Positions 10,119 through 64,000 of a DNA stretch of 64,000 nt are shown one piece after another. A program made the translations under genes and the position numbers. Positions within the stretch are counted from its first letter, which is position 1; the number at the start of each line of letters is the position of its first letter. The DNA is from Asterochloris sp. CNOR1 (taxonomy: Eukaryota; Chlorophyta; Trebouxiophyceae; Trebouxiales; Trebouxiaceae), in assembly GCA_963969365.1 (NCBI GenBank), contig OZ017749.1, positions 682,001-746,000 on the forward strand, written 5' to 3'. The notes beneath the pieces were generated by a model, which saw nothing but the letters and a program-made list of their open reading frames with translations, made no database searches and was not told the DNA's origin.

Positions 10119-13100
10119 ATGGAGCTGTTCACTTCGGACTCGGTACAGGAGAGCTCTGTAAATTTTCCAGCACAGTGGCATCCGAGTCTTTACTCAGTTC
10201 CTGCTAGGCCCGCTAGTGATCCCTTTGACCTCCCGGGGGTGCTGTACCCCGACAACGTTTCCCTAGAGCCAGTACAGGGGCTCACTGTCTCACAGCAGAG
10301 CAGGCTGAGAGGACCACAAGAGCAGGTGGATGTGAGATCCCTGCTGGCCACTCTGGCCAGGCAGCAGCAGCAGCAGCAGCAGCTGGTGGTGCAGAGCCAG
10401 CGGGGACCCCCATACCCAGTCGCAGGCAACAGCTGGAACCTGGACACGCAGCCTGCTGCAGTCCAGGTGAACGCTGAGGCCACCTGCAGCCTTCCCATGC
10501 ACGTGAGGCTCCTGGGCAAGAATTTAGTGCACAGGGGGGACTCTCATGTGATGCATGTGTCTATGCATCCCCACTCCTGCACAGCTTGTTGCTCATGGCC
10601 TCTGCTGCAGTGCTCCCGACAGGCAGCGCCAAGCAACATTCCCTCCCCCCACTGCAGGGGTCTGCTGAAGCAGAGAACACCACGGAGGGCAGGGGTGGAG
10701 GGGCAGCAGAGGGCCCCGGCACTGAGGACACAGCCAGGCAGGCCCGCCACAGGAAGCGGCGCCACAAGGAGCACAAGCGTACTAAGGTTTGCTTGCATGT
10801 GGCCGACAAGGAGGGCCACGTTCCTGGCCCACAGGCAGGACGTTTGGGCAGGCCCTGGAGACCTGCGGCCTGTGGACAGTCACCCTGCCTTCTGTGGTCT
10901 CACTGCCTAGGCGCTCAAAGATTGTGGTGCCTAGTCTTGCGTCTTCTGACCGGTCACCTACCATGCATGGCTTCTAAGACACTCACTGCCCGCCTGCTGG
11001 GTCTGGCACAACCCAGTCGACCCGTGAATGCAGTCTGAGCTGAAGAAGATTCGCATCGCGTTGGCAGCGTTGCAGGAGCAGATGCAGGCGACCGCGGCAT
11101 GGCAAAGCAAAGCCCTGAACTCGCCTTTCCTTGCAGAGCGGCGGCTGCTCCTGCACGAGTCCAGCACCGAGGTGGGCTGACGTCATCGGGGGCAAGGTTC
11201 TAGTTTCATGTGCTGCAGCCGTGGGATGGTGCCAGCCTGCGCACTGCACTGCTTCACTGCACAGCCCTCCTGCCACAGAATGTCCTCCACAGCCAGCAAT
11301 TCCCAGCATGTAGAGTCCTGCCAGCATGTTTCAGACCCGGGTCCAGTTGTGATAGTTGGCCGTCAAACGCTGTTGGGGAGCGGAAGAGCTCGATTCTCTC
11401 TGTCAGACTGATGGGGACGCTGCTGTTCCTTGCAACTGCTGCCCATCACCTCTTGGGAGATGGCAGGGCAGCGCATACCACTGCAGATATCTCTACATGA
11501 CTGAGGACATGCACTGCAACGCTGCTGCGCTGCATGGCAGTGCCTCATGGAACTGCTGCTGCGCGAGAGGTACTAATGACTAATACTTGTGCGCCGCGCA
11601 TGCCCCTCTCATTTCTCATGTATGTAATAGGAGCCAACCACATCCTTTTGGTTAATCCACCTGGACGTGATGCCAAGCTGTGGCCACCAGACCTGGCTGC
11701 AGCGACCCTGGCAGATGCTTGCGACCTTCTGCTGTTGCATGCTGCTCAGGGCCTGATGGAGGCGGGCGAGCTGGCAGGTCTGCCGATGCCAGGCAGCCCC
11801 AGCCTGCTGGGCATGGCCCAGGGCATGCCGAGTGTAATCCACATAAGCGTGGTGGGCGTGGAGGGGCAGGACGTAGAGGCCCAGCAGCTGATCAGCATGA
11901 GCTTTGACCAGGCGCGGCGTCTGTGGAAGGTGGGTGCTATTCCTCCTGGCGCCCATGCTGCATCAGGCAGCCTGCACAGAGGCGCAGATGTGTGCTGAGG
12001 CAGCAGGCAGGGCGAAGGAGCTGCTGCGCCCTGCCTGAGCTTTGACCAGGCACGGGGCCGGTGGAGGGTGGGTGCTGTTGCCCCTGGTGCCCACTGCTTC
12101 TCGTTGTGGAGTTCACAGGGGCTGCGTGTGCTGGACCTGGCTACAGACAGGCTGCAGTCAGGCTTGGACCAGGCACAGCGCCTCTGGAAGTTGGGTTAGT
12201 GCTTCTTTGCATGTCAGGCATCAGAAGCTTGGAATCAGTGGCATTGCGCCTCTGGTTGGTGAGATGGCTTGATGTCAGGTCAGACACAAAGAGCTTGCTA
12301 TGTGCTGGAGCAGACAGACAGCGAGATGCTTGACCTGGCTGGAAGGTGGGTTGCGAAGCTGTCCGCTGCATTGGGCAACACCACAGAGGTCCGCCGGCTG
12401 TCGTATTGCTGCCTGCTGGGCCGGCAGCAGACAGGCAGCAGACGACATGTGTGATGCACTGTGACCAGGTACGGCACCTCTGGCAGCGGTACAGCTGGTT
12501 TGAGCTGTGGTCTTGGCTGCTGATAGGTGTGGTCTGGGCTGCAGATGGTTGTATTCTGGCATGGGAATGAGAGACATGAGCCTCCTGGGAAGCGGGGAGG
12601 ACAGCCTCTAGCCTGCCTTGTGGGAGGCAGCTCCCTGCATGAGCACTGACAAGGCACAGCACCTGCACAAGGCAGGCTGTCTGTTCGAGAACACAGGGCG
12701 AGTGGATCAGGGAGCCTGCTGGTGTTTGGCAGAGGGCTAAGCTTGCTTGGCAGTGGGAGGGAGCAAAGGGCCTGCTGGGGGCTGACATCAGGGCAGACTG
12801 GCTTGCAACTGCATGGCAGCAATTCTGGATGATGGGGTCTGTGGCTCTTACAATGTAAGGACCGTGTTGGCCTGCACTGCTTGGCAGTGACCTGCATTCA
12901 TAAGGCCTTTTGACACGCACGCATGGGGAGGTTTTGTGTGTTCGTACGACATTATGGGCACTTCTATGGGCAGAACTTGCACCGCGCTCCACAGCCAGCC
13001 AGCACATCAGTACCCCTTGCCCATGCAGCCGCCTCTGCGTTGCCACAGTGCCTGACAAGCACACACAAGCAGCGTCTGCGTGACTGTCTCCTCATAGCTG

Positions 13101-21519: not shown

Positions 21520-21613
21520 GCAGTGCTGCACAGATCTGACCAGGATCTGCACTGAGAGGTTCCTGGGTAGGTCAGCCCCAAAACCGTGTCGGAAGATCAG
21601 CCGTTAAGCAAGT

Positions 21614-22415: not shown

Positions 22416-25400
22416 TCATGACACAGCAGACACCTCACCAGCATACGTCCTCAGCATGTACATGCCGGCAGGGTCCGTGATGAGGTGCTTCATCAGCTTG
22501 AACTGGATGCCTGGGGGCGCCTTGATCATGGTCAGGAAGGCGAAGGCCAGCAGGTGCCCAGAGGAGAGGGATGACGCAAGGAAGCCTCGCCAGTAAAAGT
22601 CTGGGAGGCTGAAAAACGTCCTGAAGAAGTTGTTGGTGGCGCCTATGTCGAGCTGGGTGAGGAGCTCCATGCCAAAGACGTGGAAAGCCGCCTGCAGGCC
22701 GGCAAACTACATTTGTTGTAGTTTGTTGAGCTGTTTAAGCTGGTGTGTAAGTTGGGCAGCTGGACGGCCGGCAGGTCAGGAGTGTGCACATGCACATCAT
22801 CATGCCGGCTGTGTGGAGCTTCCGGCTATAAAGGGTTGTTGACCAAAACGCAGGGTTGTTGCGGAGCCCTATGCAATGTCATGCAGCTTCCTCAAGTCCA
22901 CTTGCTTTCAGCTGAGCAGAGGGTGCTTGACACATCACTCTTGCAACCCAAGAGGCGCCTGGCCTCACAGACAAACTTCACAGGCCACCTTCCACACCAA
23001 ACCTACTGCCAGGAGCGGTGTGCACACGCCATCCTGTTCCCTCCCCATCAGCTTAGCCTGCCAGACATTCCAAGTACCTTGCTGGGGCGGTGGTGTAGCA
23101 CAGTTCAATTTGCATCGTATCCCATGCCTGCCAACCTGTGGCCCCCTGTCCTTAGCCACAGAGCCTGTCAGAGTATTCAATGGACAGGCCCTGCCCACAG
23201 CTCACAGCTCAGGCAGTACCTGGCGCCGCTTCTCCTGCGGCCACAGCGCCTGCCACACGCTCTCGGCCCGACGGTCGACATCGTCGCTCTTCCGCTGCAG
23301 CAGACGGGCCACATCACGGGCGAAGGCAGGGGCCTCCCGCAGGCTGCGAGCGATGCTGTACCCTGTGGCGGGGTGCACCAGGTTGGCGGCCGCGCCGAAG
23401 GCCGTCAGGGTCTGATCTCCTGAGGGCAGGGGACCGCCCACAGGGATGAAGGACCACTCCTTCTCATAAATCTTGATCACCTGCAGGCACGCACTTTGTG
23501 TCGGTCTTTGGCTCCAAGTAAAGAGAACAGGGTTCTCAGAGGGGCAACAGGTGTGGGGGATTGACAACCGCCTGCATATGACGGGCAGACAACGCTGGCA
23601 CCTGTGCTCTGCCTCTGCTGTCAGAACCCCCCCTACTCTGAACAGGGCAGCCTCTTTGACAGCCAGGTATGGCCCTCCTGCGAGGCACCTCCCTGCAAGC
23701 AGCGAGCGCTCTTCCCCTCAGATGTAGGTTCCCCTCAGATCAGCCGCTGGGAATCAGCTCGATCAACGCATCTTGATACCCCTGGCTGCCAGCCCCTGTG
23801 GTGGCAGAGCAGGCGTCCAGACATCCCAATGACAGGCCGCCTCTGCCAGCCCGGACAGCCCTGATAGTGCACTGTCCACCCTAGTCGTGCCAGCTGCACT
23901 TTGACCTATGGTTTCAGGAGCAGAGCAAATGACCTCTTTGTATAGGCACTACACTAATAATGGAGGACAGCAGAACAGGGGGCAGGTCTGACAGACGAGC
24001 AAGCCACCAGGAGCATGCAACAAGGGGCAGCTAGGGAGCATGCAGCTGGATGCCAGCATGCTGGCGCCGCTCCCCAGCATGATGCGGCTGCCATTTGTCC
24101 CGCTTGGAGATGGTACCAGACACCCCAGGTACAAATGCCTGCCACTCACAGACACCACTCGCAACAGTGCTGCCAATGGGCGCCGACCACCCCTCCAGCT
24201 GTTGCTTTAGTAATAGTCTATCACCAGACCCAGCTTGGCACTCAAGACGCCTTGATGTCGGCTTGACATGCCCCAAAAGGGGCTCACTCAACCGGCACGT
24301 ACCTTGATGCCCATGGCTGCCAGCCATGACGCTTGCGGACAGCACAGATCAGCCCCACTCCTGCCACCTGGCAATCACAGAGTTGACCACCAAGCCCACC
24401 TTGATGCCCATAGCCGCTAACCGCCTCTCCAGCCGCCTCTTCAGAACGGCAAAGGGCAAGGCAGGCTTGGCCACCAGGCAGGTCTCCTCCAGAAAGACGC
24501 GTCCGCGGTCTACAGGCATCGCGTACAGGAACGAGGGCACCTCAGCCTGGGTGCCCCAAACGCCCTCGCCCGCCAGGGGATGGTTACCAGGCTCAAGTCT
24601 GCAGCATACAGTGCAATGGCGCCAGTGGAGACATGTCTGGTGCCTCTGCCTTCAGGAAGGCTGCCAATTAAGGTGCACTGCAGGGGTTGCCACCATCAGT
24701 ATGTCAGCAAGAAATCAGCTGGGTGAGTGCCCTCCCCCTTTCCTCCCCCATCCCAGATTGCCTACCTGCGAGCACCGCCATCCCACAGCCCGGTGTGGTG
24801 CCGTCGAAAGTCCATGAACAGCATGGAGTTGGGGTCGTAGGCTTTGTCATATCCCTCCACCTCAGCCTCAATGCCGTATGCTGTCTGGGCAGCCACTGTT
24901 GGAGCGCCACCCTCATACTGTAAAAACTTTCCGGCAGCTGCGCCTGCTGCCAGAATGACCAACCTGAAGCCGGGGGGGGAGGCTTGTTTTAAAAAACGAC
25001 GCAGCAGTGCCTGTCAGCAAAGTCCACCTCCTTGCTCAAACAGCGTTGCTCGACCTCCTGCCAGGATGAGCGGTCTACAGGTGTAAGGCAGATGCCAATG
25101 CAGAATTGCAGGTGGGTGTGTGGTGCATACGCTGAACCCTGTTCTGTTGTGCAGCAAGCGCAGTCCAGCTCACAGACATATGTAATGTCTACGAGCTGGT
25201 TTGCCAAGCCTGGTGCCTCGACATGCTGCAGCCCGCATACAGGCCCTCGCCTGGACTGAAGGCGGCTTCCGTCTTTGAGCGTCAGCTGGGCAGTGCCGTG
25301 CTCTGGCAGCACGCTGTGCCCCGTCATCTCCCCAGGCAGGAACTGCACCCCCTGCTGCTTGCACCGCTCCATCAGCTTGTTGCGCAGCCGGCGGCGGCAG

Positions 25401-27491: not shown

Positions 27492-27819
27492 CAGAACAAC
27501 AGACACGCACACGGGAAGGCCTAGTAAGTCTCCGCACTTGATGAGGGCATCTGAACGAGGCGCAGGGTCCGATCTGGGGTGAAGATCAGGTGTGATATCT
27601 CCGCTTTTCCTTCTTCGAAACATCACCTCTGGGCACATGACTCAAGCGTTAAGGCCAGCTGTGGTCCCTGCCTAGTCTACCTTGCGGCTGAAGAGACACA
27701 CGGGAAGATCTGACCTATTCAAGCTCTTCCAGACTGAGTCTTAACAGGACAGCGGCGGGGGCTGCCTGGACGATCTGATGCACAGAACACTCTGAGAGCT
27801 GGCAGGAGGACAGCCAAGG
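27492..27819. promoter_or_regulatory. Divergent promoter between LCYE and SRP68
   Basis: The two start codons (27491 minus, 27820 plus) are 328 bases apart, so both promoters and leaders lie here unless the alternative LCYE ATG at 27638 is used, which would shorten it to 181 bases. No clear TATA box or repeat was noticed. Confidence 0.55.
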
Positions 27820-47600: not shown

Positions 47601-50600
47601 CGTGCTAGAGACATGCATTTGCCCCCTGGCACAGCCCATTAGCTCTCCGTTTTTCTGCCTTCAGTGGAGTTCAATGTCATGAGCTCTAGAACTAGCAGCT
47701 GCAGCATGCAGGATGATGAGGTGCCTGCAGCAGTGGCATGAAAGCTATGTGCATGCGCGTTGACAGGCCCGCACTGTGCCTGAATAAGCAGTGCCTTGTC
47801 TTTTCGCAAATCAAAACAGCCCTTCATCATGCGCAGATGGCCTAAACTGCCGCCCCAAGATGGCGCATCATGCGCAGCGGGCTATTCACTACCCCCCCGC
47901 TTTGCATGTCCTTCTGGGTTCTGCTTAAAAAGCCAGCCAAGTGCATGTTCACAGTGCCTACCCCCTGAGGGCGCTGGCTGTGTGATGCTTTGGTTGACGC
48001 CAGACTGTGCACATTGCTGCAGGTGGATCAAACCTGTCTCCTTGAGGTCCTCCAGGAGGAGCCCACCTTTGACCACCAGCACTTTCGGGACGTCAAGGCT
48101 GAGGAGGGCGGCTCATGGGATGAGCCCAAGCCAGAAGGTGAGCTGTCCTCAGTGCATGAGGCAGTGAGTGTTGCGCTAAGGCTCCAGAGATGGGCCCAAA
48201 CCAGCATGGGAGCTTTCCTCCAAATGAAGAGGTGGTAGGTGCTTTTCAAGCTTGGTCTGGAGGACGCGTGCATGTGACATGTTGATCCGTCCACACTTGC
48301 CAAGCTGGTTTGTCCAGCAGCAATTGCAAGGCAGTGGGTGTCGCTCAAGCAAGATGCAGAGCGTTCTCCAAGGGGCGATAAGCGTCGCCTTGTCCATGAG
48401 GCTGTGCATGCAAACCTAAGCATGCTCAGCATGTTGTGGGGCTTGTCCTACGAGGAGGCATTGCTGTCACCAGGTAATAGATGGTACTCAGATAATGATG
48501 GGCTGTGTGTCAAGCCTGAAGCAGTGGGTGCTACATTGAGCAGGCTTTCCAGCACTTGCCTAAGTTGGGAGTGCCTTTCTCAGGTGTTGCAGAAGCCTGG
48601 CTATAGCACACTTAGAGCATAACATCAGCCTGGCAGTCTGGGCCTCGTCAGTCATCATGCTGTGATGCACTGGTTTGCAAAGGCCTTGGTAGCAAACCCT
48701 GCTGCTGCTGTGCCGCAGTGATGTGACCTGGCCTGCAGATCTGGAGGAGGATGTCTTTGAGATGATTAAGGCGGAGGTTCAGAAGGAGACATCAAAAGCA
48801 GGTGAGGTTATGCACATCTGCAGCCCTTGTGGCTGAGGAATGCACTGCCACCCTCCAGCTACCTTCACTTGGGGCCCACCAGCAGAAGTCACATTGCATG
48901 AAGCTGTTTCATCTGCTGAGCATTCTGTCTCGAGTGCAGAGCAGCCAGCAGAGCAGCCCCAGCCCAGCATGGCTGCAGCTATGCAAGCTGCTGAGGCAGC
49001 GCTCAAGCAGGGCCAGGGTCAGCTTGACCTGCAGGCTGCGGCCGGCGCAGACACCACAATCAAGCCTGTACAGGAGCCTGCTATAGAAGGCTCACAACAG
49101 CCTGCAGACCAAGCAGAGGCGCGGGCAACCAGCGATGCCAGCACTCAGCCACAATCGAACTCTCCAAGGCTTGATAAGGGTCGGGACTTGCTAAGGCCCC
49201 CATCAAACCTCAGTAGGACGGAGAGCCGCCTCATGACAGGATACACTGATGATCTTGATTACTTGGAGGACCACTTCAAGCTGGTCATCACGCAGATGAA
49301 GTGAGTGGGGGTTGTGTGCTGCAGTCTAGGAGTCGGAGGGTCCCAGTCTCATGCGGCCCCCACTATCAATTGCCTGCGCTCACAGCAGGCACTGCACTGG
49401 CTGCTACACAAGACATCAATATTGCCAGCTGGCAACTTAGCAGCTGTGCCTCTGTGGGTCCTACGACACCCCTGGTGGTCCAAGGACAGCAAGCTGCACA
49501 GCAAGAGTGTGACAAATTCTGTTGGGCATGCAGATTGGGGCGGCTGCGTCGCATTCTGGCATTGGATGAAGGGGACACAGACGGCCTGTCAGACGAGGTG
49601 AAGCTTTGATGTTGCCAAAAAATGTCCTGCAGGTGTGCTGCAGTGTGTGCAGGCTAAAGCCAAACAGAACAAGTGGGTCAGGTGCCCAGCAGGAACCTTG
49701 TCAGAGAATGAAGGGCAGGGATGGCAGAATTTGCCATAACGGGAGCCAACACAGCTCTTGCTAAGAGCTCTTTGCAGTCTCATGAGACAGCACTACTGCC
49801 CCCACTTGCATGACCTGCCCACAGCAACAGCCAGCGTGGTCTGCCTCAGTGTTGGCTTCACCTGTTGTTACTGCCTACAGTGTCAACACTGGAGCTGCAT
49901 CTGGCAGTGCACCCTTGCTCCAACAATGATCGCGTTATTGCCATTGCCTGCAGGGCCTCTACTACAGCCGCAGCCAGCAGGACCCACGCACCAAGGCCAT
50001 GCAGCAGCTGCGTGAGCTGGAGGGGCGTGAGAGGCTAGAGAAGGGGCGCCTAGAGCGGCGTATGACGCTGACCACTTTCGGGGCTGGTGAAGGTATGTAG
50101 GTCTCACAGGAGGTGTTTTCTGGCAATGGCTGCAGATGGACAGCAAGAGAGAGGAGGGGTTTGCACAAAGAGAACATGAACTAGCAGCCACCTGGGTCTG
50201 CCATGACTGCTGTAAAAGGTGCGGCCTGCGAGGAGCTGACTGCCCTACGCGCCATTAGTGGCATGCTTCCCAAAGTGCTGGTAGAGAGCCGGGCAGCATG
50301 CTAGGCAGCGGACGGTTCTGGCCTAAGCCGGCAGCATGATAGCAGCAGCGTGGTGCAGCAGCCTTATGACACTGCTCCACTTTGCTGGCACAGCAGGGTG
50401 GCTGCCCTCACAGAGCAGCAGACCCTGTCACTGTGCAGTGCTGCTCCTGTCGTGAGGGACAGAAAGCACTGCATCAAGTGCATCGTGCGCTGCCAGTGTG
50501 ACGGTTTGATCAAGCATTTGCCCGTCAGTGCTGCAGGTTCAGAAGGCAAGTGGACGCCCCGCCTAGAGCGCCTCGTGCGGGCGCGGCAGCTAGCTCCCTT

Positions 50601-53600
50601 TGAGCGGCAGGTGCTCCTGCTGCTGGTGGGGTGCCACATCTCCCCGCCGGTGCTGCGCACCTTCATTAACACCAGGACCGGGATGGACGAGCTCAGTTCC
50701 AGCAAAGTTACGGTGTGTGCGGCAGAGCAGGCCTGGTGCATTTGTGAGGGCGGCTGTGAGGTCTGCTGGTAGCAGGTCTTGTCACGAAGAAGCATCATCT
50801 GTCAGGGGAGTGCAGAGCATTTGTTACTGAGAGCTGTGTGTGCCCAAGCCGATATTGTCAGCCCTTTTGCATAGCCAGGGTACCTTTGCCGCAGAGGGTT
50901 AGGCAAGTTGGCCTTGCAGCCCATGATTGGCCACTGCTTTTGGCAGCTTGAAGGAATGCTCTGCACGTTCCCCCAGCGCTGTTTTCAACGTGCAGCTAGT
51001 TCTTCATATTTGTTGCTGTGCTGGCAGGCCACCAAGCATCACATACTGCGCACTGCCAATGCTTCGGCACATGTAGATGTCTGCCAATCAATCTCATTTT
51101 GTGCAGGTCGGATCTCTGCTTCTCGTCTTCCTCCCTGCATCTCTGTCTGAGCAGATCAGAGCACGCAAGTTCTTCAACAAAAGCGGGCGGCTGGTCAAGG
51201 ATAGCATCATCACTTTGTCTGACAGCTCCTTCAGTCGCGATGTGACAGACCAGGTGACCTTGGGAGCTGCATTGGTAGAAAGGGTGTGCTAACAGGCCTG
51301 GTTGGTATTGCTGAACATGTCTCTGACAGCTCCTTCAGTGGGGAGGCCCTGATAGCTGTGGAAGATTGCTGTGGGCTCTCCACTTCTCAACATTCAGCAG
51401 TTAGCAGCAGGTTGCTCCCCATGGCCAAACATAATGAGGAGGTGAAACAGATCAATCCCGTTGCCTGCATCCGCTGCCAGCAGCTACCTGCTCATGCCAG
51501 GTGCTTTCTGTGGCCCAACAATTGGTTTATGATGATGATGATGATGATGATCAAGATCAAATGTGCTGCAGGGTGTGGACATTGATCGGCGCATGCTGGA
51601 CTTCCTTGTAGGGCTAGATACAGAGTTCAGTGACATGGTGAGCCAAGCAGGTCATCAGGATAATCTGGAAGCTCAGCCTCTACTTTTCTCTCTAGGCACA
51701 GCAGCTCAAGCACCATGGCTGAGTGTGCTGTGGGCACCAGGCTGCAACACATGCTGGCTGCATGACCTGCTTGTGAAACCCACCTGCGTTCACCTCCTGC
51801 ACGATTGTCTTTACCCTTGTGTACAGATGCACTTCAACCTCATCTACGGCCCCTCAATTGTTGTTGTGGAGCCCTCTGCCTGCATGTTGCCAACGTGCCG
51901 CCTGTCTGGCAGGTAGACAGCAGCATCTGTCTCCTCACCCCATTCAAGGTGCAGCTCTCTGTACATTGTAGTATTAGCTGTCTGGCCTGCAGGGGCACGG
52001 CAGTGACATCATGGCCCCCCCCCCCGGGTCATATGTAGACATCACAGACCTCTTGTTGAGGCCTGCTCATTCTTGTGAGCACGTGAAGCCTGTCTGGCCT
52101 GCAGGTGGACGGCAGTCACCTGTACTTCCCTGCGAAGGTCCAGCTGGAGGACGTGATTCTGCCTGAGGAGCAGAAGCGCCTCATCACAGAAAGCGTGGTT
52201 AATTTTGGGGCCTACAAGCGCGTCCGCAAGATGATGGACCTCACAGATTCAAGTGGGTGGCTGCCCAAAATGCTGTGATGTTCCAAGTGTGCCGACAGAA
52301 AGTTATCAAGCTGACTCACATCAGGGACCCTGGCCTTCGCCGTGCAGCAGCAGGCCAGGCATCAATAGTAGCATCGCACACTGCAGGTCACTCCCAATGC
52401 GGTGCCTGGCAGCAGCAGTGGACCTGCAACTTCACCTGTGCAGCGGCCCTCATTACCAACAAACCCAAGCCTGGTGTTCAACCTGCCTGATGTAATCCTG
52501 CCTGGTGTTATGAGCAGCCAGACCTTGCAGTGCTGTCTCCAGCAGAGGCTGGATGCGGCTGCGGCCTGACCCTGCTGCCCGAGTCTGGCAGCTGCGCGGA
52601 CTCGCTGTGCCTCCCTTCCTGCAGTTGGGGCAGCAGTACTGATCAGGCGTCTGCTGCTCCACCGACGGAATATTCTGGCAACAACAGTGGCCTGGTCACC
52701 TTTGCTGTGGCCAGGGGTGGCTACACTCGCCTGACCATGGATCTGTGACACAAACCCTCCTGGTTGGAATCTGCTGTTCTGCCTGAGCCAGCAGGGGCAG
52801 GAGGGCAGTGAGGGACATGACTAGGAGCAGCAGAAGTGGTGGCCTGACTCTGCTGGTCTGCTAGTACAGTGGTCAGCGGTGGCAGCCTCCTGACCATGCC
52901 GTGCCATCTCTGCAGTGGCCGGCGGCAGCGGTGGCCTGACCCTCCTCTTCCACGGCGAGTCAGGCACGGGCAAGACCATGATGGCCAACGCTGTTGCCCG
53001 GCATGTCAACAAGAAGGTGCTGCTCATCAACTTCCCCTCGCTGGGGTCCAACGAGGCTGGAGAGGTTGTACGCTTCATATTCAGGTGGGCCTAGGGTTGT
53101 TCTGGCATGCCATTGGGCCGTCCTGCAACTACAGCATCTCAAGTGCTATAAGGCAAGCAATGGTGTCACCTGGAGGAAGGTGCAGGATCTTGTCTCATTG
53201 TGCAGGGGACACCTGGATCAAAATGGCGAGTGTGTGGATAATTGATCTGCGTTCCCCTGCCACAACCCGTAAAGTTTCGCAGCACCCCTGCCGTGGATGC
53301 AGGATATATGTCATCACAGCAGCCTGCAGACTGCAGCAGAGACTTCCTGCAGGGAGAAAGTGTCTAGTTGCACCAGCCTGCAAAGTGCAGGCTGTCATAT
53401 GCAGGCATTTCCATCTGGCCTGCTTGTGGGGCATAATCTGCACCCAGAGTTCTGCTCTGGTCGTTGTCCTGTGATCCATCTGCACCCTTGCTCTGCAATG
53501 GCAAGACCTGCTACAGCACGCTGTGCAAAACCAGAAAAAGGTAAGCACTGCCTTACGTTTTCTCTTAAGTCAATGGAAAAGGGTGATGACTTAATCAAAT

Positions 53601-56600
53601 CCCGTATTGCGCATTGATGAAGCAGGCCATCCTCAGCTTTGAGTGGGGTAAAGCTACCCTAGCTTTGCAAAGCAATGAACATCTGTAGGCAATTTGCGGC
53701 CATGAGTGTATCAAACATGATGTGCAAAAAGGTGCCTGCTGCACTGCAGGGAGGCCAAGATACATGACGCTATCTGCCTGTTTGATGAAGCAGGTGGGTC
53801 CTGCAAGTGCTGCCCGTGACTCCTTCTTGCCACCCTTTGGTGGGCATGCATGGGTCTACGCAAAACAACACCCAGCCGCAGTCACCGCAAGGATGACAGG
53901 GCTATGTGTTCCTGTTGTGGCTTGAAGCCTCAGGCTCCCTTGCTGCCTGCCACAAGTCCAGCCTGCACCTCCTGAGCTTTCCAGAGATGCAGGCAGCACT
54001 TCATGATTGCAACACAGTACTGCAGGCAGCCTGTTCACCTGTTCCCAAAGAGCTTCTGGTCTCTGCAGAGAGCTTGTTTGAGGACCGCGGCAAGAGAGGC
54101 AGCTACCATGTGAACATGCTACTGACAGAGCTGGAGAAACATGACGGCATTTGCATCCTTGCAACCAATAGGTGTAGATGAGCTCCTGCCCAAAATCCAG
54201 TGCAATGCACTTGCAGTGCTCTTCCCAGCGCCTCAGGCCTCAGCCGTCATCTCACATCTGCTCCTCCATCATATTGCTGGGCCTACCCTACCAAGCTTGT
54301 GCTGCCAGCTAGCTGCTCAGTGGTGTCCCTTGCATCAGCTGCGAGCACTCCTGGCTGGCCACACAAACCCCTGCCCTGCCAGCTGCTGAGTCCATAAAAG
54401 TGTCAGGGTTTTGTTACCCTTACACGTGCACTGCCACTGGGACTGACCTCTTGGCCCAGCTGGCTGTGCAACTTGTGCGCTCAGTGCCATCTTGTCCATT
54501 GTCTCATACCTTGCCTGCGCTTGGATGCAGACCCTATGACTTGGACGACGCCATGCACCGACGCATCCAGCTGGCCTTCGAATTCAGGTGGGTGCTGCCA
54601 ACAAGTAGCTTGGAAGGTGCGGCTACCTATTCTGTCATCACTTTTACACAAAATGCCTCGCTGCTTTTGCCATCGGCACTGGCATAACCTTAAGCGATGA
54701 TCCAGTCTTGTACATCATTTACCACTGCGTGGTGCCACCTGGCTGCAATGGCAAGAGTGCAAGTAGCATGACAGCCTCCAGAAACCAGTATAGAACCCGG
54801 CACAGCCTGCTTTACAACTAGTGCTGCACCTGCTGCTGCCAAGTGCTTCAGGTGGCTGCATCACTGGGTACACTCAGCATCTTGCGCTTGTAATGCCTGC
54901 TGCAAGGCCAGACCACCTGCCATGCTAAGCTTCTGTGCTCCCATCCATGTGCTTCCCGTTGCGCATCCTCTGCCCAAACAGCTGCACCATGCAGTGCACT
55001 GCTGCAGACAGTTCAAGTCGCTTCATTGCCTGCTGCCCCATTGCCCGTTGTGGTGGTGCAGCAAGCACAGGCACTCGTCTCTTGATGAACTCACCAGTCC
55101 CAACTGCTGTTGACGTATCAACCAGCAACTGGCCACCTGCCACAGCCCTGCCCCACCTGCTTCTTCTGCTGCTGCCACTGCTGCTAGCCCCCTCCTGCTC
55201 CTTACGTCTGTCATGCCTGCTGCAGGAAGCCTGACCACCTACAAAGGCAGGCCATCTGGCGCAAGCAGCTGGGGGGGAAGATCCAAACCGCAGATGACCT
55301 GGATGTCAGTGCCCTTGCGCTCAAGTACGAGCTCAGCGGCGGGTTCATTCGCAATGCTGTGCAGGCTGCACTCAGCAGGTAAGCTTCAACCGTTTGTTGA
55401 TGTTTGCATTAGAAGTGCAATGCAGAGCAGGCTGCCCTTTACAGTGATGCCCTGCATGCTGCTGGGTGTGGACGGGAGGCGTGGTCTGTACTGGTGCAGC
55501 AATGCATGCTGACATTGGCAGGTGAGGCAGGTGGGCCCATCACTGCAAGCCTCCGGCCATATTGCTGCACACTGCCGGGGAACAGAGGCGTTTACTGATG
55601 CGGCAGTGCATGTTGGCAGGTGAAGCTATGGCTGACACCTGACTGCTGCTTGCAAGTCGCACATGCCAAGCCTTGCCGAGAAGCCACGGCCAAACACTTG
55701 CAGCTGTTCTTGCTGCACACTGAGCGGAGAAGAGGGGGTCTGCAAAGCTGTACAGGTCCAGACTGGCCAGCCTGCTGTGGATGCGGGCGTCTCAACAAGC
55801 TCCTTCATCGTCCCCACGCATTGACAGCAGACTGCTGGCTATGGTGGCCAAGCCCCCACCATGCAGGCCAGACATCACGGTGATTCTGGTGCCTGCGTGA
55901 CAGGGCTGTACGCCTGGCTTGACCTGCGTTGCAGGGCTACAGCCCGTGACAGTGAGGGCCCCACGATCTCCCAGGGCGACCTGCTGCATGGCGCCCACTT
56001 GCAGCTGCGAGGTGCCCTGCGCATGAAGGACTTTGACCGCAGAAGGGTCCCCACCCGGGGGCTGGAGGCCGTGCTGCTGCCAGAGAAGCTCAAGGCACAG
56101 CTGCAGAAGGTCGTCTCCCACGAAAAGGTGGGTCGCGCAATGCACTGAGGCAGGCAATATGGACGTGGAAATGCAGGCTGCTGCCAGACAAGCTCCAGGA
56201 GCAGCTGCAGAAAGTTTGATCCCAAGAAGGGGTGGGTGTGCCTTCAAAATGTCCCGCAGGGGGAGTTGGTGCTGCTGGCAGGGTAAATGTTCCTGAGGCT
56301 GGTGTTGCACCCGTGCTGCACTGTCTTGATGTGGGGGTACCGCCTCACGTGTGAAGCATGTACCAGCTCCCATTGCCGTCGAATGGCGCTCTATGCAAGA
56401 GAAGCCTGCAGCTGTGAAGGCGGGCTAGCGCTGCCCTGTGGAGGGCAACTGCACAGCGACACAAGCATCACTTGGAGATGTGTCTCACCTAGCACTTGCC
56501 CTGCAGCATCCCCATGAGCTCAAGGTTGCAGAGCGGGTGCAGCCCCCAGCAGGGGACCCACCTGCTCCACTCCCCTCAGCCCTCTTCAGCAAGCTGCACC

Positions 56601-59233
56601 CTTCTATATAGGAAAGCACTTGCAATCGGTCTGCTTGTGATGTGCCACACGACAGCGCCTGGAGTAAGGCTCAGCTCTCACTGTGCTCTGTTGCAGGCAA
56701 GGGCAGTCTTGGTGGGACAGTGGGGTTTTGGCCAGGACGGCCGCGACATGGGGGGCACAGTCTGCCTATTCACAGGTGGTTTTATCGATGTGTTGCTGTT
56801 CCACCAGCCCTCCTAGTGTGTGGCTGGAGGGCGGCTGCTATCTCTATAAGCGGGACATGCTCCTGGCTTGGCAGGAGTGACACGCTTCAGCAGATGCCAC
56901 TGCAGCGCCCAAGCGAGCTGCAGTGCCAGCGCTCCACACCGTGACTTGGTGACATGCCCCGAACCACTGTTGCACATATGCCTGCCTTTTGTGCCAACAT
57001 CATCCCATCCTGGACAACATATGTATGTGGTGACAGAACCTCCTGGCAGTGTGAACCGCTTAACCCTGTCTAACAGCAGGATGGAGCTCCAAGTATGATC
57101 AATCACCAAGCACTGCAATCAGGGCCCAGCCTTACCAAGCTATGGCTTCTGCACGCCGTGCAGGAGAGCCAGGCACCGGCAAGACCTTGGCAGCTGAGGC
57201 AGTGGGGTTGGAGACGGGGAAGAGCCTCAAGGTGACCCTCCCCACTTAGCAGCGTTGTCTGAGAAGGCTACTCTGCCTGCAGTCAGCTCCGTGTTCCTTC
57301 AAATGGCTCTGCTTCCATGGCTGTGGGTTGGGCATGCTTGGTCATGGACAGCATCCCAAGTTGCCCACGGTGGTGATGCTGGGGACATGCAAGAGGCACT
57401 TCTCCTGTGCCTCCTGTCAAGACAGGGCTGCTTGCAGTCTGTACTCCAGTGGCGAAGACATAGTGGGGCCTGTGGAGGGTTGCGAATGCTGCTGGGCGGT
57501 CTGAAATGTGGAGGCACCATGGAAGGGTGCTGCTCGCTCCTTGCGCAGTACATGTGCTGCACCTCAGTGCAGAGCATGGGGGTGGCCTGGCTGCTTCACC
57601 GACGCAGCGAGTCGATGTCCTGTCCAACACAACGTTTGCACTGCGCCTCAGGCCTCGGCAAGCGGGCTGCCTGGCTGCCACTGTGTTGCTGCAAGTCTCC
57701 ATGTGCTCTCCCAGGTGGTGAGCTGCGCCTCACTTGTCAGCAAGTGGGTGGGCGAGACCAGCAAGAATCTGGATGCCCTGTTCCAGGAAGCCCATGCCAC
57801 AGGTGAGCGTGCTTGATGGCGCAGACACAGAGGCGGGAGCTGGCTCAGCCCCCCAGAAAGTCACCTTCCTCAGCACTGCTGCGCTTTCTGGGCCTGAACA
57901 TGCTGGGGCTGTGCACTTCACGCTTGGGACGCTCATGAGGCTGAGGCGTGCTGCTTCTCAACGGGCACACCTGTGACAGGCAACATTTTCACCACGCTGG
58001 GAGCCTCTGCATTTGCTTTGCCAACTGTGTGACCTCCAGAGTCTTTGGCAGGTGCCTTTTCTGCTGCCTGTCTCCAGGTGACCTACCCTGGCACTGCCCA
58101 ACCCTGCTGCTGTGGTGATGTTGCACTGACTGGCTGACCTGCAGATTCTGTGCTGGTGTTTGACGAGGCAGAGGGTTTGTTTGGCAGCCGCAGCAGCACC
58201 GTGGGCAGCAGCACTGACAGATATGCCTCCATGGACGTCGGTGAGGTCTGGCACCGCTCTCAGTGGTGCTTGTCAGGCAGCTCTTGTGCCTCTCCCATGG
58301 AATGGCAGCATTAGCCTCTGCGCAATCCACTGCAGTACTGTTCCATTTGCAGTCCTGCCTGCTGAGCAGTTGTTAGGCTCCCCCTTCAAGCTGTCAGCAT
58401 CAACCCACCACATTGGCCTGCATCTATCTGCTGGATACCTTGCACAGGCTCATGAATGTGTTGCAGGCGTCACTTGCTGATCTGCCAACTGCCCTGCAGG
58501 GGTGTTGTTGTATCATTTGGAAGCGCACACTGGTATCACGATTCTGATAACCAACAAGCCTGAAGCAATTGACAGTGCCTTCCAGCGGCGCATCACCTTC
58601 TCCCTGGAGTTCCCAATGCCTGATGCCGCCCTCAGGTCCGTGCACAGACCCAGATCAGCGGCTGAGCCTAACTGACAGCTGCACCTGCTGGACATTCTCA
58701 AGCCTGCTCTCAGCACTGAGGACTGGTTCACCTTCGCACCTGAGTCATGCCTCAGCTTGATCGGCGCCATCAAGGCTGAAGCTCATTCATGCTGAGTTTC
58801 CCGTGACGCTGTTGCCCTGCTTTCACCCTTGCTGGTGTGATCATGCCCTACCTGCATGCAGAGCAAAATTATGGAGGTCAACCGTGCCGAAGGCGGCTCC
58901 TGTGGCAGACGATGTCAGCTGGGAGGCCCTGGGGCGCTCATATGAGATTGCAGGTGGCTCTATCAAACAGGCTGTGATCAGGGCAGCCACCAGAGCCGCT
59001 CTGAGGATGCAGGTGGGAGATGTGGTGGCATCTGTGTTTTGATTGTACATGGGCTGGTGCCTGTGTTCAACCTGTTGTTGTCTTCCTCCTCATCATGCTG
59101 GCTGAATTTGATGTTGCTCATTCACATTCAGGACGGAGCGAGTCAAATCACAATGACTGACCTGAGGGAAGAGGCCCAGGACGAGGTCAGCAAATCAGGC
59201 GGGAAGGGTCATCCCTTCGGCATGTACACCTGA
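44654..59233 (+). CDS. Double-AAA ATPase with duplicated winged-helix-like N-terminus
   Basis: Exons: 44654-44797 (tentative), 44903-45034, 45311-45459, 45933-46142, 46855-46908, 47013-47079, 47221-47330, 48023-48137, 48739-48801, 48886-49300, 49534-49597, 49954-50092, 50537-50712, 51107-51253, 51572-51637, 52105-52252, 52916-53084, 53750-53793, 54069-54171, 54531-54587, 55226-55378, 55935-56127, 56697-56775, 57164-57231, 57715-57802, 58145-58240, 58500-58635, 58862-59012, 59132-59233 (TGA). From 44903 the frame is intact for 1163 residues. Module 1: Walker A GESGTGKT, Walker B AICLFDEAE, sensor ILATNR, arginines MHRRI. Module 2: GEPGTGKT, SVLVFDEAEGLFG, ILITNK, FQRRI. Two similar segments lie upstream (LLPRFERLVRRLKLGPKERV and WTPRLERLVRARQLAPFERQ). 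This arrangement resembles bacterial winged-helix AAA proteins, including those near contractile injection systems. Likely a remodelling ATPase; substrate unknown. The 5' end is uncertain; ATG 44669 is a candidate start. The intron after 47330 has a GC donor. Confidence 0.82.
45696..45850 (+). repeat. Two decayed copies of an AAA-gene exon 5' edge
   Basis: The start of exon 45933-46142 with its acceptor (cctgcaggcccaccagcagc, then ttggagcagaaaggggcc) is echoed at 45696-45722 (ttgcaggcccaccagctgcg) and 45791-45850 (gctgcaggccgatcacgcac, then cttgagcagggcaggggcc). Both copies retain a gcag acceptor. Confidence 0.7.
51319..51360 (+). repeat. Decayed copy of an AAA-gene exon 3' region
   Basis: The string tctgacagctccttcagt from the end of exon 51107-51253 recurs exactly about 100 bases downstream in the intron, followed by diverged sequence. 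Confidence 0.7.
51529..51550 (+). repeat. (ATG)7 microsatellite
   Basis: Seven ATG units plus one base, in the intron just upstream of the acceptor at 51571. It also replaces the usual pyrimidine tract position by about 20 bases. Confidence 0.95.
51898..52010 (+). repeat. Two decayed copies of an AAA-gene exon 5' edge
   Basis: The acceptor and start of exon 52105-52252 (tgtctggcctgcaggtggac, ggcagtcacctgt, aaggtccagctgg) recur at 51901-51960 (tgtctggcaggtagacagca, aaggtgcagctc) and 51979-52010 (tgtctggcctgcaggggcac, ggcagtgac). Confidence 0.75.
56175..56240 (+). repeat. Decayed copy of an AAA-gene exon 3' end plus donor
   Basis: The end of exon 55935-56127 (gctgctgccagagaagctca, cagctgcagaaggt, cacgaaaaggtgggt) is repeated about 90 bases downstream with substitutions, again ending in aagaaggggtgggtg, so a potential donor is preserved. 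Confidence 0.8.
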
Positions 59234-59373
59234 GGCCAGAACGCTAGCAGCATCATTTAATCAATTCAGTTCAAGTGTCTATCAAAGATTCATTGGCATG
59301 AAGCTTTGAATTGAGTTCAGAACCTAAAAATTTCCGTTACCCTTCACTGCTATAAATGCATGCAGAAGTCTGT
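59234..59373. other. Short convergent 3' region
   Basis: Only 140 bases separate the stops of the AAA gene (59233, plus) and the next gene (59374, minus). The stretch is AT-rich, so the two 3' UTRs probably overlap. It holds no gene. Confidence 0.6.
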
Positions 59374-62300
59374 CTAGCTGACATTTTCTGAATAAAGGTC
59401 ACCCAGCTGCTGCTGAATGTGTGACTTGCTGTACCTGAAAGGCCTTGCCGCCGCTGTCAAAGTCTCCACCAATCTTAGCCGGCGCTGGCCGTCGACCAGA
59501 TTTTCGAGGATCCAGTTATCAAGGGTGTTCTCATCACAATTCCAGGAGCCTGGTTCGCCAAGCTTGAGGGGCTGCAGAATCTGCTCTGCATGCTTGCCTG
59601 ACTGCAGGTCCACTGTGGCCAGGACATGTCTCACTGCCTGCTGCATCTCGGACTGACTGAGGGCAGGGAAGACACGATTCAAGCTTTTGATCTCCTGCAG
59701 ACAGGCAGCCAATGTGATCAACTTGCGAAGGATCACAAGGGGCCATCAAATCAAATAAGCATGTGCTGGTGCATGCGGCTGCCAACAGGCTCACCTTGAG
59801 AGCAACTGGGCTGGGCTCAGCCAGCCCATCTATGGGCAGATGCAGCGTCCCATTCTGATGGTTGTACTGGAAGATCACAGACAGGGTCTCCTGGCTCCTG
59901 ACGCCGGCTCTGCATATGAACGCTGGGAGCTAGGTGCGCTTGTGGGTCATCTCGGTGCACTTGCTGCCGGTGCACAGCCTGGGAGGCGCAAGCAGCCAAG
60001 CAGTCAGCACCTCCATGAATGCCCAGCAGCTTGACCAGAAGAGTGTCTGGTGCATTTGTCCAGCATGAGGCAGGAGTGCTTCAAGGCCTAGGCAGGCGCT
60101 ACATGAGCAGCAGTGTCTCATCGTACTCATCTGGGCAGATGGCAGCTTGCAATGCTTGCTCATTTCATGATGCCCAGAGCAATGAGCCCCGGTCCCTGAT
60201 GCTTTGTACTTCGTGCAACAGGGGCTCATTCTTCCCAATCGATTGTTCCTTTGTCTTTGTCAGCAGGACTGTAGGTCTCGCTGCATCCCAGCCTGCTTGA
60301 AGAGTGCTGCTCTAGTTCTGCAACCGCGCTTGGCCCAGGGCTTGCCCAGCTCCTGCATGACGTCAGCCCCAGATGCAGCTGCAGCCGGAGCTGGAACTCA
60401 TCACACCAGTCCACATGTACCTCACCCAAAATCCTCCAAGCCCAGCCCCAGGTGCAGCTGCACCTCATGCAGCTCACACAGGTTGTAAGCCCCCTCAGTG
60501 GCATGCATCCTCTCCAGCAGCGGGGGCGTCAGGTAGGTCACGAAGAGGGCCACGTTGGTGCCAGGGGAGTGCTCCAGGGTGGCTGCACAGCAGACTTGAA
60601 GGGAGTCAGCAGGCGCCCTGTGGGAATGTGAGATGCTGCTGGAGGGGTTCAGGGTGGCTGTACAGCATGCAGGCAGAGCTTCAGCAGATGCCCGCGGTAT
60701 TCTGTGCAGCCCTGTATACACAAGAGCTGACAGTCTGTGGCTGGGCAACATGCAGGTGGGAACACCCAAAGGTGCTTGCGGGACAGTTTGAGTTTCAGCG
60801 TGCAAATCAAGGCCGGCAATGATATGAAGCATCTGCAAAAGGCCCAGAATTGCCACAAAAGGATCAGGGGCAAGTGACTGGCCTGCTAGCCCTGTGAGCA
60901 GCCAGATTGCCAATAACAACCCTTCTGCCTTCCTGCCTCCACTGCGATTGTGCTGCTGCCACCATGCATGCAGTAAAGCCTCCTCCAGAGTAAGGCAGGC
61001 GCCTGTATCAATCACTGCACCTGTACAGGAGCCATAGCTGGAGATGAGAGGGGCATAGACCACGTCAAAGTCTGGAAGGATACCCCGCAGCACTGGGATG
61101 ACCACACCCTCAGGGAAGAGGTCTGCACAGGGTAGACGGTATGATGAGTATGGCAATATAAACAGAAGGACCGTGTGCACCTCCCCACCCTGCACATGCA
61201 GCAGCTCAGCAGTATGGGCAGCTGCAGCAGTGCAGAACCCAGAAGTGTAGGGCTTATCAGGGTTGCATGGGCATTGTGGCTTGAACCATGCTGGTGGAAG
61301 CTAGGCAAAGGGTGCTGCAGCTGGCTGCTCAGGCTGCGGCATTTGCAGCAAGTCAATGCAGGCGACTGCTGCAACAGGCCACCGTCCAGACTGTGCAGGA
61401 AGACGCACCTGCTGGGAATTTCCTTGCCAGCTGGGCCGGGCCTGCATTGCTGCCCACTGCCAGTACCGGGACCCAGCTCAGGTCGGCGGCCGCTGTGGCC
61501 CAGTCAACACCACGCTGCCTGAGCAGGTCTGGCACACTGCAGCACAGGAGGATCTGGTGTGCTCATACTTCTTTTGCTGTGCTGGGTGTGCTGGGCCTGC
61601 CCATGGGTGAAGATGAGGGCCTGACAATATGCAGACTCATGCACCTGAGTCAGTTGACTGCTAGCATCTGTATATGCTCCACAGACCGGAAAGACATGAT
61701 CTGGGGGCAGGCGTCTGCCTCTGCCTGCATACCTCAGAGGCATGATGCGGCAAATCTGCTCTGACACCCAAGCATGCTTGCATGCTGAAGGGGGCCTGCC
61801 ATGGCGCTCCAGCACGCTGGCGCACCAGCCACAGCATGATGCAGTGCTCGCACCTGACTGAAATGCCATTCTCCTGCACCTGCAGCTGCTCTAGTTGCGC
61901 ACAGCCCTGCCACTGCTTGTCGTCAAAGATGTAGTGCTGGCCACTCACAAATAGGAAGCTGGAGTCAGGCCTTGTGTATGGATAGCCCTGCAGGATCCAA
62001 GAAAGACAAGCATCAAGAGGGAGACATGTGAAGAATCATACTGCCAAACACTGGCAGACCATGCTTGAACAGCTGTAATGCTGTGCTGCAGCATGCAGGA
62101 GCCCTCACTTTGGCCCTAGCAATGCGCTGCTCATCAGGAACTGCGGGTGGGGGGGCAGCAGCTGTCTCAAAGCCTTGCTGCCTGCAAGCTTGGATACACT
62201 GTAATCAGCTGAATGTACTGAACAGAGGCCTCATCAGTGCTGCAATCACCTTTCTGCTTTGCTCATGAGGTCTCTTCGGATCCGCTCTCTGATCCTGTTG

Positions 62301-62452
62301 GGCTGCGGTTGCAAGGTGGAGTCACCAAGCGATCGAAGGCCCCCCCAGCGCATTGCCCAGATCAAAGAAGAAAAAGAGAGAGCAGTTCTGCTTGGGGCCA
62401 AAGCTTTGATCTGTGCAGAGATCTGATCTGTGCATATCCAATTAGCAGCCAT
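59374..62452 (-). CDS. Conserved protein of unknown function, possible gamma-glutamylcyclotransferase-like fold
   Basis: Eight exons: 62250-62452 (ATG 62452), 62109-62181, 61854-61987, 61409-61536, 61021-61122, 60426-60582, 59795-59897 and 59374-59694 (TAG). They give 1221 bases, or 406 residues, all phases matching. The first exon looks like a Ser/Arg-rich organelle-targeting leader, then RIRERIRRDLMSKAE. The third has GYPYTRPDSSFLFVSGQHYI; the fourth PVLAVGSNAGPAQLARKF; then IPVLRGILPDFDVVYAPLIS, SPGTNVALFVTYLTPPLLER and MHATEGAYNLCEL; near the end SPVALKEIKSLNRVFPALSQ. The GSN near the start of the core, the SSYG and the later T-E-G-x-Y recall the gamma-glutamylcyclotransferase/AIG2 fold, but this is an inference from spacing only. 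I do not know a named function. The alternative donor at 61880 for the third exon gives a wrong phase. Confidence 0.75.
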
Positions 62453-62487
62453 CTGTGCTTGTCAGACAGGAAGCCTCCTGCCGAAAT
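62453..62487. promoter_or_regulatory. Very short divergent spacer
   Basis: If both start codons (62452 minus and 62488 plus) are right, only 35 bases lie between them, so the promoters must overlap the other gene's coding sequence or one start is wrong. Confidence 0.4.
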
Positions 62488-63995
62488 ATGGAGGGAACGA
62501 TCCAGCGCCAAGAAGCCTGGATGCTGCTTGTTGGACCACTGTCTGATGAAGCCATTGGCTGCCTCAGATCTGGCCTGCAGCACTTGATCACGGTGCTCGC
62601 TCTGCAGCCACAGAGCCTGCAACATGTGTCCATGGGGCAGGGCAGTGTGAAGCTGAGCAAAGAGGGACATCCCCAGCTTGTGGTGAGCAGCAACAAGTTG
62701 GTTCCCAACAAGACATTCCTTCTGCACAACAATTATGTTCTGCCACCTGCTCAATCCAGCCATGCTGGTGCTGCAGCTGCAACAGGACTTAATGCCCTTC
62801 TCCCCGCAGCAATGGTACCCAAAACTTCAGACCATGAAGTCCAGCAAAGCTCCAATCAGCAGCGGCAACTTCAGTGAGTGCAGCAGCATTGCCTCCGTGA
62901 CTAGATGGGCCAGGCACACTGGCCTCACCTCTGCGCATATCTGTGGTAGGCAAAGCCCTCCACCTGCAGCCAAAAGATCCTGAAAATCCGTCCCAGAGAC
63001 TGTAGGGGTGTCTGACAGCACCCGTCTGCCTAATTGTGCTGCAACTCAGCCCTCAGTGCCTAAACGCACATACCATCCCAGCTGCCTGCAGGCAAGGTGC
63101 TAAGGCGCTTCAAGCCAGCCACCAAGAAGGCCATGATATTTCATGCTGTAGTACCCTGTGCCCTGGCAGTATGTGTGACTGCTTCTACATTCCTCAGGGT
63201 GTTGCACTCACGCACAACATGCAGAAAGGTGCATCTATCCCTGCAAAAGTTGGCTGAGCATCCTGCCTTAATGCCTGCAGGCAAAGCTCTCAAGGCGCTT
63301 GTGAGCCGGGTGCTGGACAAGGCACCAACAACCACCCATAGGGCGGTGACAGTGGTGGCGCAGACCTTCAGCGATGCCGCGGATTACGACAAGATTCTCA
63401 AGGTCTGCACATGTCAACAATGCAGGCACACCATGCAGCTTGTCAGGCCCCTTCTCAGCGTCGATGCAGTGCCCGTGCCTGCCTGCTGTGAAGCCTGCAC
63501 TGCCCAGGGCCTGCACACCTTGGCCAGAGCATTGTTCTGCAGGAGCTGAGCCTGCCTGTAGCTGCCATTGACAGCATGCTGCCAGGTATTGCAGGAGCCC
63601 CTGCGCTCACGCCATTGCAACATGTTTGAAAGGACAGTAATGCCTCAGACTGCCTGCAGCCTGTCTGCACAAGTCTGTGAACGCCTCCAGTCAGGGCCGT
63701 CTGTGGCAGCCAGTGTGCAACTTGCAGATCACCACCACCTTAATCATTACCCATGTCGCAGGCGCACTCATTCCAAGCAAGGCATTTCAGGAGCAGCAAA
63801 AGAACTGCCAGTCACTGACAACATGCTGCCCTGGCCTGCAGCAAGCAGCAGTAAGGAACGTGCACATCGAGTTCGTGGCCATTTGTGAAAACCTGGAGCC
63901 AGCGGGCGGGGACATGCAGGCTGCTGCAGAGCTATCAGCCTTTGGGGTGGCCCTGGAAGAGCATGAGAATGCTTCCCTGCAGTGGTGCCGTCTTG
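62488..63995 (+). CDS. Unrecognised gene, 5' part, runs off the right edge
   Basis: Exons read: 62488-62682 (ATG; WMLLVGPLSDEAIGCLRSGL), 62810-62873 (QWYPKLQTMKSSKAPISSG), 63281-63402 (KALVSRVLDKAPTTTHRAV) in agreeing phases, then 63595-63636 (tentative, EPLRSRHCNMFERT) and 63762-63995 (VRNVHIEFVAICENLEPAGG). The phase between the last two does not match, so an exon or boundary is missing in 63637-63761. The window ends in a donor (TTG|gtgag), so the gene continues to the right. The product appears soluble and mostly helical; I do not recognise a family. Confidence 0.5.
63081..63115 (+). repeat. Decayed copy of an exon 5' edge
   Basis: The acceptor and start of exon 63281-63402 (tgcctgcaggcaaagctctc aaggcgctt) are echoed about 195 bases upstream (tgcctgcaggcaaggtgcta aggcgctt), keeping the acceptor. 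Confidence 0.75.
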
Positions 63996-64000
63996 GTGAG

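Follow-up and report, generated by a model that had tools for sequence, protein, structure and literature searches.

Introns of Asterochloris sp. CNOR1 carry local copies of adjacent exon edges, probably from short DNA duplications across splice junctions

Copies of exon edges are present in introns of the alga Asterochloris sp. CNOR1 (Chlorophyta, Trebouxiophyceae). They were examined in a window of 64,000 nucleotides—meaning the whole stretch from position 682,001 to 746,000 of contig OZ017749.1 (assembly GCA_963969365.1)—and in samples of 18 large contigs; the copies were confirmed and also occur outside the window. The copies are local and direct, they concentrate at exon–intron junctions, inverted edge copies are absent, and their decay is compatible with neutrality. 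The favored explanation, to which a probability of about 0.6 is given, is short local duplication of DNA across splice junctions, with an excess of events at the junctions and with the outer splice site being kept. An earlier note on the window had described such copies in at least five genes, named bZIP 1, SRP68, GH36, AAA, and right-edge gene, and had seen in them a way by which introns grow.

The sample consists of the window and one 10-kb stretch from each of the 18 large contigs, 244 kb in total and thus 0.4% of the genome. The assembly comprises 56.4 Mb in 21 contigs, of which contigs 1 to 18 measure 1.99 to 4.47 Mb each and contigs 19, 20, and 21 measure 43, 110, and 215 kb. The window has a GC content of 58%; an excerpt of PMC6652019 gives nine introns per gene for Asterochloris and a GC content of 56 to 62% across 98% of the nuclear genome. 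Genes were predicted by a hidden Markov gene finder (GHMM) that was self-trained on the 244 kb, and genes with fewer than 240 coding bases were discarded. The gene finder converged on 31 genes with 270 exons and 250 introns of 551 bp mean length. The splice signals predicted by this model are very strong, the donors being AG followed by GTGAG or GTGGG and the acceptors TGCAG. In the edge test, a 75-base query from each exon edge was compared with its own intron on the same strand, and matches scoring at least 30 were taken as copies. Testable introns numbered 238 of the 250; 11 had no flanking exon inside the stretch, and one was shorter than 100 bp.

Copies in the own intron were found for 34 of the 238 donor edges and 42 of the 238 acceptor edges, so that 69 introns (29%) contain at least one. 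The window accounts for 7 donor and 10 acceptor edges in 51 tested introns, and the 18 other stretches for 27 and 32 in 187 introns, with copies in 15 of the 18. The reverse-complement control gave 0/238 donor and 0/238 acceptor edges, and the shuffled control, in which same-length DNA from introns of other genes was searched, gave means of 0.05 donor and 0.40 acceptor matches over 20 draws. Chance similarity through splice motifs or composition is ruled out by these two controls. Other introns of the same gene matched in merely 2 of 832 neighboring and 2 of 3740 farther comparisons; the edge copies are local to their own intron. A dispersed repeat, a mobile element, or an introner-like element was rejected as well, with just 2 of the 76 copies matching elsewhere in the 244 kb and 48 spacers yielding one match elsewhere. 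Hence, the earlier note was right to call the copies same-strand and local, and neither of the two outcomes that it had named as refuting it, a lack of excess over shuffled pairs and a dispersed repeat, occurred in the 244 kb. As for its suggestion that introns may grow in this way throughout the genome, the sample makes this a fair reading, within the small share of the genome that it covers. Introns with copies have a median length of 542 compared with 434 for those without, a difference that may partly reflect the longer search space.

The directness of the copies is also apparent from a search for local pairs of any kind. Among pairs 100 to 400 bp apart with at least 30 bits, 117 are direct and 2 inverted, whereas below 100 bp inverted pairs equal direct ones (48 versus 43), as expected for hairpins. 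Local pairs with at least 32 bits number 147; in 71 of them, an intron copy is paired with a junction-spanning copy (intron–junction, IJ), and in 29 both copies are intronic (II). Start-to-start distances have a median of 122 bp in junction clusters, whereas intron pairs have a median of 99 and intergenic pairs one of 87, and the exon part of the copies is mostly 10 to 95 bases long. That only the junction is copied and not the whole exon, as had been claimed from the sequence, is borne out: 0 of 73 edge copies reach the far end of the exon (exon queries being cut at 250 bases), and the matches peak at the junction. In 40-base windows, the match rate is 10.4% at the junction, 6.5% in the adjoining 40 exon bases, 1.5% at 40 to 80 and 0.3% at 80 to 120 exon bases, and 1.5 to 3.7% in the intron interior. 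Reinsertion of spliced fragments, named earlier as a possible origin, is not supported, since most copies hold intron bases and the clusters lie at so short a median distance from their source.

In the favored explanation, a direct, local duplication at the DNA level would copy some 30 to 120 bases, with start-to-start distances of typically 80 to 160 bases, and would strike exon–intron junctions, which would act as duplication hotspots. The outer splice site, upstream in the case of donors and downstream in the case of acceptors, would stay in use, and junction duplications would be tolerated for this reason. The whole extra copy would turn into intron and leave the protein unchanged; it would then decay neutrally, with the source conserved as exon, and repeated events would lengthen the intron. 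The duplications may originate when staggered breaks or paired nicks are repaired by fill-in, with filler frequently added where the ends are joined. Paired nicks yield short direct duplications and are a possible source of the copies; such duplications are not known to prefer exon–intron junctions.

A junction-spanning duplication is visible longer because one of its copies stays conserved. The concentration at junctions could, thus, arise from local tandem duplication that strikes uniformly, with preservation of the exon partner as the only bias. Observed were 53 junction and 13 exon–intron clusters against 21 intron–intron clusters, a ratio of 3.1, in addition to 13 intergenic clusters. Simulations were run on gene structures whose exon and intron lengths were those measured, with introns evolving neutrally and exons slowly, with indels, balancing deletions, and duplications of about 75 to 100 bp, and with unchanged detection; the parameters were chosen by the authors, and the runs covered a constant rate as well as old bursts, different indel rates, and 300-bp deletions. 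Uniform duplication gave pooled ratios (junction plus exon over intron) of 0.5 to 0.9 (IJ/II alone 0.43 to 0.69), a pooled ratio of 0.59 in another run, 0.81 to 1.07 with an old burst, and 0.60 to 0.83 with 300-bp deletions; single replicates reached at most 1.19 where printed. The observed ratio differs from this overall range of 0.5 to 1.1 with a binomial p of 3e-6 or smaller. The simulated profiles are, moreover, flat or form a plateau over 60 exon bases, without a sharp junction peak. Weighting junctions by 3 to 6 gave ratios of 2.28, 2.37, 2.54 to 3.69, and 3.22. In these models, a junction weight of about 3 to 6 is needed to match the observation: an excess remains beyond preservation bias, with junction-spanning events some three to six times commoner, relative to intron-internal duplications, than a uniform process with preservation leaves. 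Uniform duplication does account for the existence of intron–intron and intergenic clusters with similar periods, exon partners do evolve slowly, and an old burst lifts the expected ratio to about 1 with a mild junction plateau (at most 3.0% compared with 1.3% in introns). On balance, it is unlikely to be the whole explanation. Protection of exon edges from large deletions is ruled out by the simulation with 300-bp deletions.

An independent hint of splice-junction specificity comes from start and stop codon borders, which are conserved but unspliced. Copies were found for 2 of 43 such borders compared with 76 of 476 splice edges (p = 0.028), and for 1 of 42 after removal of one probable donor (p = 0.008). 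Motifs that resemble donors but lie away from exons have no more copies than expected, with 4/147 in intergenic DNA and 12/186 in antisense introns, random intergenic points giving 4.7%; for donors, a DNA motif alone was, therefore, rejected as the cause. Of 101 acceptor-like intergenic motifs, 20 fall within local repeats, compared with the same 4.7%, and herein missed genes or exons, CTGCAG low complexity, and a motif effect are not separable.

Several points weigh against an excess of duplication at splice junctions. It depends on simulations with chosen parameters, and annotation error or unmodeled differences between exon- and intron-derived sequence could reduce it; the gene models are predictions on 244 kb, with Pfam run for five window genes of the 31. 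The weighted simulations place 3.4 to 6.2% of matches at 40 to 80 exon bases, where 1.5% was observed, and constant-rate simulations contain about 40% young pairs, whereas high-identity clusters make up 9 of 53 at junctions and 4 of 21 in introns. A looser local-match test yields 14.5% for donors (26/179) and 19.1% for acceptors (34/178) versus 7.9% for random intron points (copies included), a contrast of merely two-fold, which uniform duplication would accommodate. At a threshold of 26, start and stop borders no longer stand apart clearly (5/43 versus 99/476, p = 0.10). Simple tandem duplication predicts spacers that resemble the flanks, and such spacers are mostly absent. Finally, no dated presence/absence event was seen.

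The spacers bear on whether copying was tandem or spaced. Of the exon-edge pairs whose identity is 78% or higher and whose period does not exceed 160, 3 of 21 are gap-free, compared with 49 to 60% for simulated tandem pairs of like identity in four simulations, and the likeness of spacer to flank in pairs of at least 78% identity has a mean z of 0.29 (standard error 0.29) compared with about 1.0 to 1.2 in simulated tandems. Young exon-edge copies, thus, likely have non-homologous spacers, though the numbers are small; such spacers would point either to filler added during joining or to an edge copied into a break close by. The latter alternative envisages templated insertion during end joining, by which a nearby exon edge is copied into an intron break and the spacer is the original intron sequence. 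It is at odds with the pairs below 78% identity, where 6 of 14 are gap-free (simulations 50 to 66%), and with all pair types taken together, where 19 of 51 are gap-free (constant-rate simulations 69 to 79%, old-burst simulations 46 to 68%) and the difference from the lowest simulated value of 46% has p = 0.15. The contrast with intron pairs (6 of 14 gap-free; intergenic pairs 2 of 6) has p = 0.11. Templated-insertion repair also makes inverted copies, and no inverted edge copy was found. In addition, clear head-to-tail arrays exist among the direct, local copies, as in the GH36 gene, where the repeat search finds 3 to 4 copies of an 82-bp unit at 40690–40925, and the choice of the junction as template is left unexplained. 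Spaced copying as the general mode is, hence, doubtful, if somewhat less so than uniform duplication.

Two duplications of the sampled stretches were observed apart from these comparisons. At L006:9010-9316, a tandem array extends from a predicted exon into the adjoining intron with 77.8% identity over 207 nt at an offset of 96; from its sequence, it is a candidate for a duplication that lengthened the exon too. At L005:119-457, an intergenic duplication has a period of 173 bp with the full unit and 88% identity over the best 32 nt; ordinary tandem duplication occurs outside predicted genes too.

The decay of the copies is compatible with neutrality. The identity of copy to exon at codon positions 1, 2, and 3 is 0.814, 0.831, and 0.754, which is the pattern that constraint on the exon alone should produce, and gap openings in the copies amount to 0.11 per mismatch. 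Of 27 donor copies, 15 retain the GT, and of 36 acceptor copies, 29 retain the AG, both in line with neutral decay; the adding of decoy splice sites, which the earlier note proposed, is not supported as a lasting effect. Change of GT in donor copies was 12/50 compared with 4/75 at hand-picked neighbor positions (p = 0.005), yet GT changes at about the average rate of the copies, so preferential destruction of donor GT is not claimed. Selection that keeps or favors the copies as back-up or alternative splice sites or as splicing enhancers, so that they persist longer, is improbable: the GT count equals the neutral level, the share of high-identity clusters is similar at junctions and in introns without a sign of slower decay, and the copy shared with the related open frame P0005 has a gap while its spacer aligns. 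It could draw on the AG count, which lies slightly over neutral expectation (p = 0.11), and on the highest match rate being that of the junction windows. Decay with distance from the source, also part of the earlier claim, is seen at the showcase loci—scores drop with distance at 11929, at 32040, and from the first copy on at 40766—but not in general, as the nearest copy is the best in 14 of 32 arrays where chance predicts 13.1. A general age gradient along arrays was, therefore, dropped.

Two related readings are very improbable: that the copies record the birth of introns through tandem duplication of exon sequence containing AGGT, or that they are the decayed remains of duplicated exons with a splice site on either side. 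Excerpts of PMC4974935 and PMC3443670 document intron gain by tandem duplication, and the copies do carry one splice site; yet intron birth predicts pairs of two junctions, of which there are none among the 147 local pairs, and the complementary splice site does not bound the copies (GCAG at 8 of 34 donor copies, random 19%; GGT[GA] at 4 of 39 acceptor copies, random 11%). Complete pseudo-exons, which the locus at 56177 had suggested, are ruled out by the same boundaries.

Among the closest parallels known to us is the potato RdRp gene, in which a short direct duplication across an intron–exon boundary copied the splice signals along, as excerpts of PMC4974935 and of the review PMC3443670 describe. 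The likeness lies in the boundary and the included signals; the difference is that a new intron arose in one gene there, whereas here existing introns seem longer, the copies give rise to no predicted new intron, and the pattern touches about 29% of the introns sampled. In fungal [D] stwintrons, a functional donor is duplicated beside the original, for which the authors invoke repair of asymmetric breaks (excerpt of PMC7138796). Herein, the duplication spans 4 to 7 nt and creates nested introns, whereas in Asterochloris it spans 30 to 120 nt, takes in coding bases, and affects both donors and acceptors. Local within-gene duplications in the same excerpt of PMC4974935 include ones with entire introns, whereas here the junction alone is copied, mostly with 10 to 95 exon bases. 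Among the matches listed in the open-license literature, none reported exon-edge copies in introns on a genome-wide scale, which is not proof of absence; as far as found, the pattern was previously described in single genes only. The junction preference and perhaps the spacers would be the new parts.

To our knowledge, the lengthening of introns without transposons is poorly known. A large share of the sampled introns carries insertions that can be traced to their source with single-base precision. With sister genomes and long-read RNA, this makes it possible to measure directly how fast introns grow, what becomes of the copied splice sites, and which repair pathway acts. For annotation, such introns are a warning: they hold exon look-alikes with splice motifs, and intronic exon fragments need not be old exons. 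A stronger version is put forward tentatively, as a possibility short of even odds: splice junctions would be hotspots in this lineage, where transcription- or splicing-coupled copying would place about 30 to 120 bases around functional donors and acceptors into the own intron, in many cases along with a short new spacer, and introns would owe much of their length to it. Each intron would then hold a readable record of past junction sequences.

Open frames of related genomes appear to contain two of the duplications. The L020 exon is identical in P0005, and the copy in its upstream intron is recognizable there with a 9-residue gap; several matches of this exon have a PCI domain, and we take the gene to be eIF3a. 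P0037 has the L004 source edge, and, in our reading, the bases that follow encode the copied stretch in another frame. Since the copies of L020 and L004 appear to be shared with relatives, both duplications seem older than those splits.

Table 1. Source edges and copies in the window (positions count from its first letter).
Feature	Position	Strand	Evidence
Source-edge exon, donor after 11929	11762–11929	+	GHMM gene model
Copy 1 of 11929 donor edge, 83% over 66 nt	12033–12098	+	Repeat search (pair 11895–11955/12033–12093), edge test
Copy 2 of 11929 donor edge, 83% over 35 nt	12162–12196	+	Local pair search
Weak copy of donor edge at 24399 (minus-strand gene), score 30	24138–24210	-	Edge test
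Copy of donor edge 29180–29242	29383–29444	+	Edge test
Copy of acceptor edge 30468–30532	30317–30373	+	Edge test
SRP68 acceptor edge 32013–32100, third copy, ~78%	31577–31621	+	Local pair search
SRP68 acceptor edge 32013–32100, second copy, ~81%	31733–31803	+	Local pair search
SRP68 acceptor edge 32013–32100, nearest copy, 89%	31858–31950	+	Repeat search (pair 31884–31938/32033–32087), edge test
Copy of SRP68 exon end 32151–32202, ending 8 nt short of donor	32251–32302	+	Edge test
Copy of SRP68 acceptor edge 32614–32670, own TTGCAG	32515–32570	+	Repeat search (pair 32531–32570/32631–32670), edge test
Short copy of acceptor edge 36902–36923	36787–36808	+	Edge test
Copy of 37424–37446 near acceptor 37405, 96% over 23 nt, junction not included	37238–37260	+	Edge test
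Copy of acceptor edge 38350–38403	38215–38268	+	Edge test
Raffinose-synthase (GH36) exon, source edge, donor after 40766	40533–40766	+	Gene model, Pfam
Array, at least 3 copies of 40690–40771 unit (exon end + GTGAG), initial copies head to tail	40772–41067	+	Repeat search
Short copy of acceptor edge 45928–45950	45699–45721	+	Edge test
Copy of donor edge 46118–46148, GT now GC	46340–46370	+	Repeat search, edge test
Copy of donor edge 48110–48150	48180–48220	+	Edge test
Copy of acceptor edge 52090–52119, 90%	51978–52007	+	Repeat search, edge test
Copy of acceptor edge 52884–52946	52513–52576	+	Edge test
Copy of acceptor edge 55201–55240	54881–54918	+	Edge test
AAA/winged-helix gene, last exon bases + GTGGGT donor, source edge	56073–56133	+	Repeat search, gene model
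Copy of AAA/winged-helix donor edge, 80%, beyond 43-nt spacer without detectable homology	56177–56237	+	Repeat search, edge test

For the five genes named at the outset, the repeat search alone shows the cited cases; the right-edge gene and the bZIP 1 label were not confirmed. At the right edge, the direct pair 63083–63110/63272–63300 (31.9 bits) is present, but no exon is predicted there, even with a relaxed prior. Pfam, run on five window genes, identified SRP68 (250 bits), raffinose synthase (560), and lycopene cyclase (285), as well as winged-helix, AAA, and WD40 domains; for the gene with the 11929 donor, it gave just a below-cutoff CFAP96-like match and no bZIP. SRP68 and raffinose synthase were merged by the gene finder into one model at 27056–42622 and are probably two adjacent genes. 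In the AAA/winged-helix gene, the gene finder reads through the exon to a stop at 56148, whereas, judging by the repeat, a donor probably follows 56127. No gene is predicted from 56149 to 64000 despite open frames such as 59374–59745 on the minus strand, and the same part contains the short direct pairs 60566/60641, 60364/60443, and 63083/63272.

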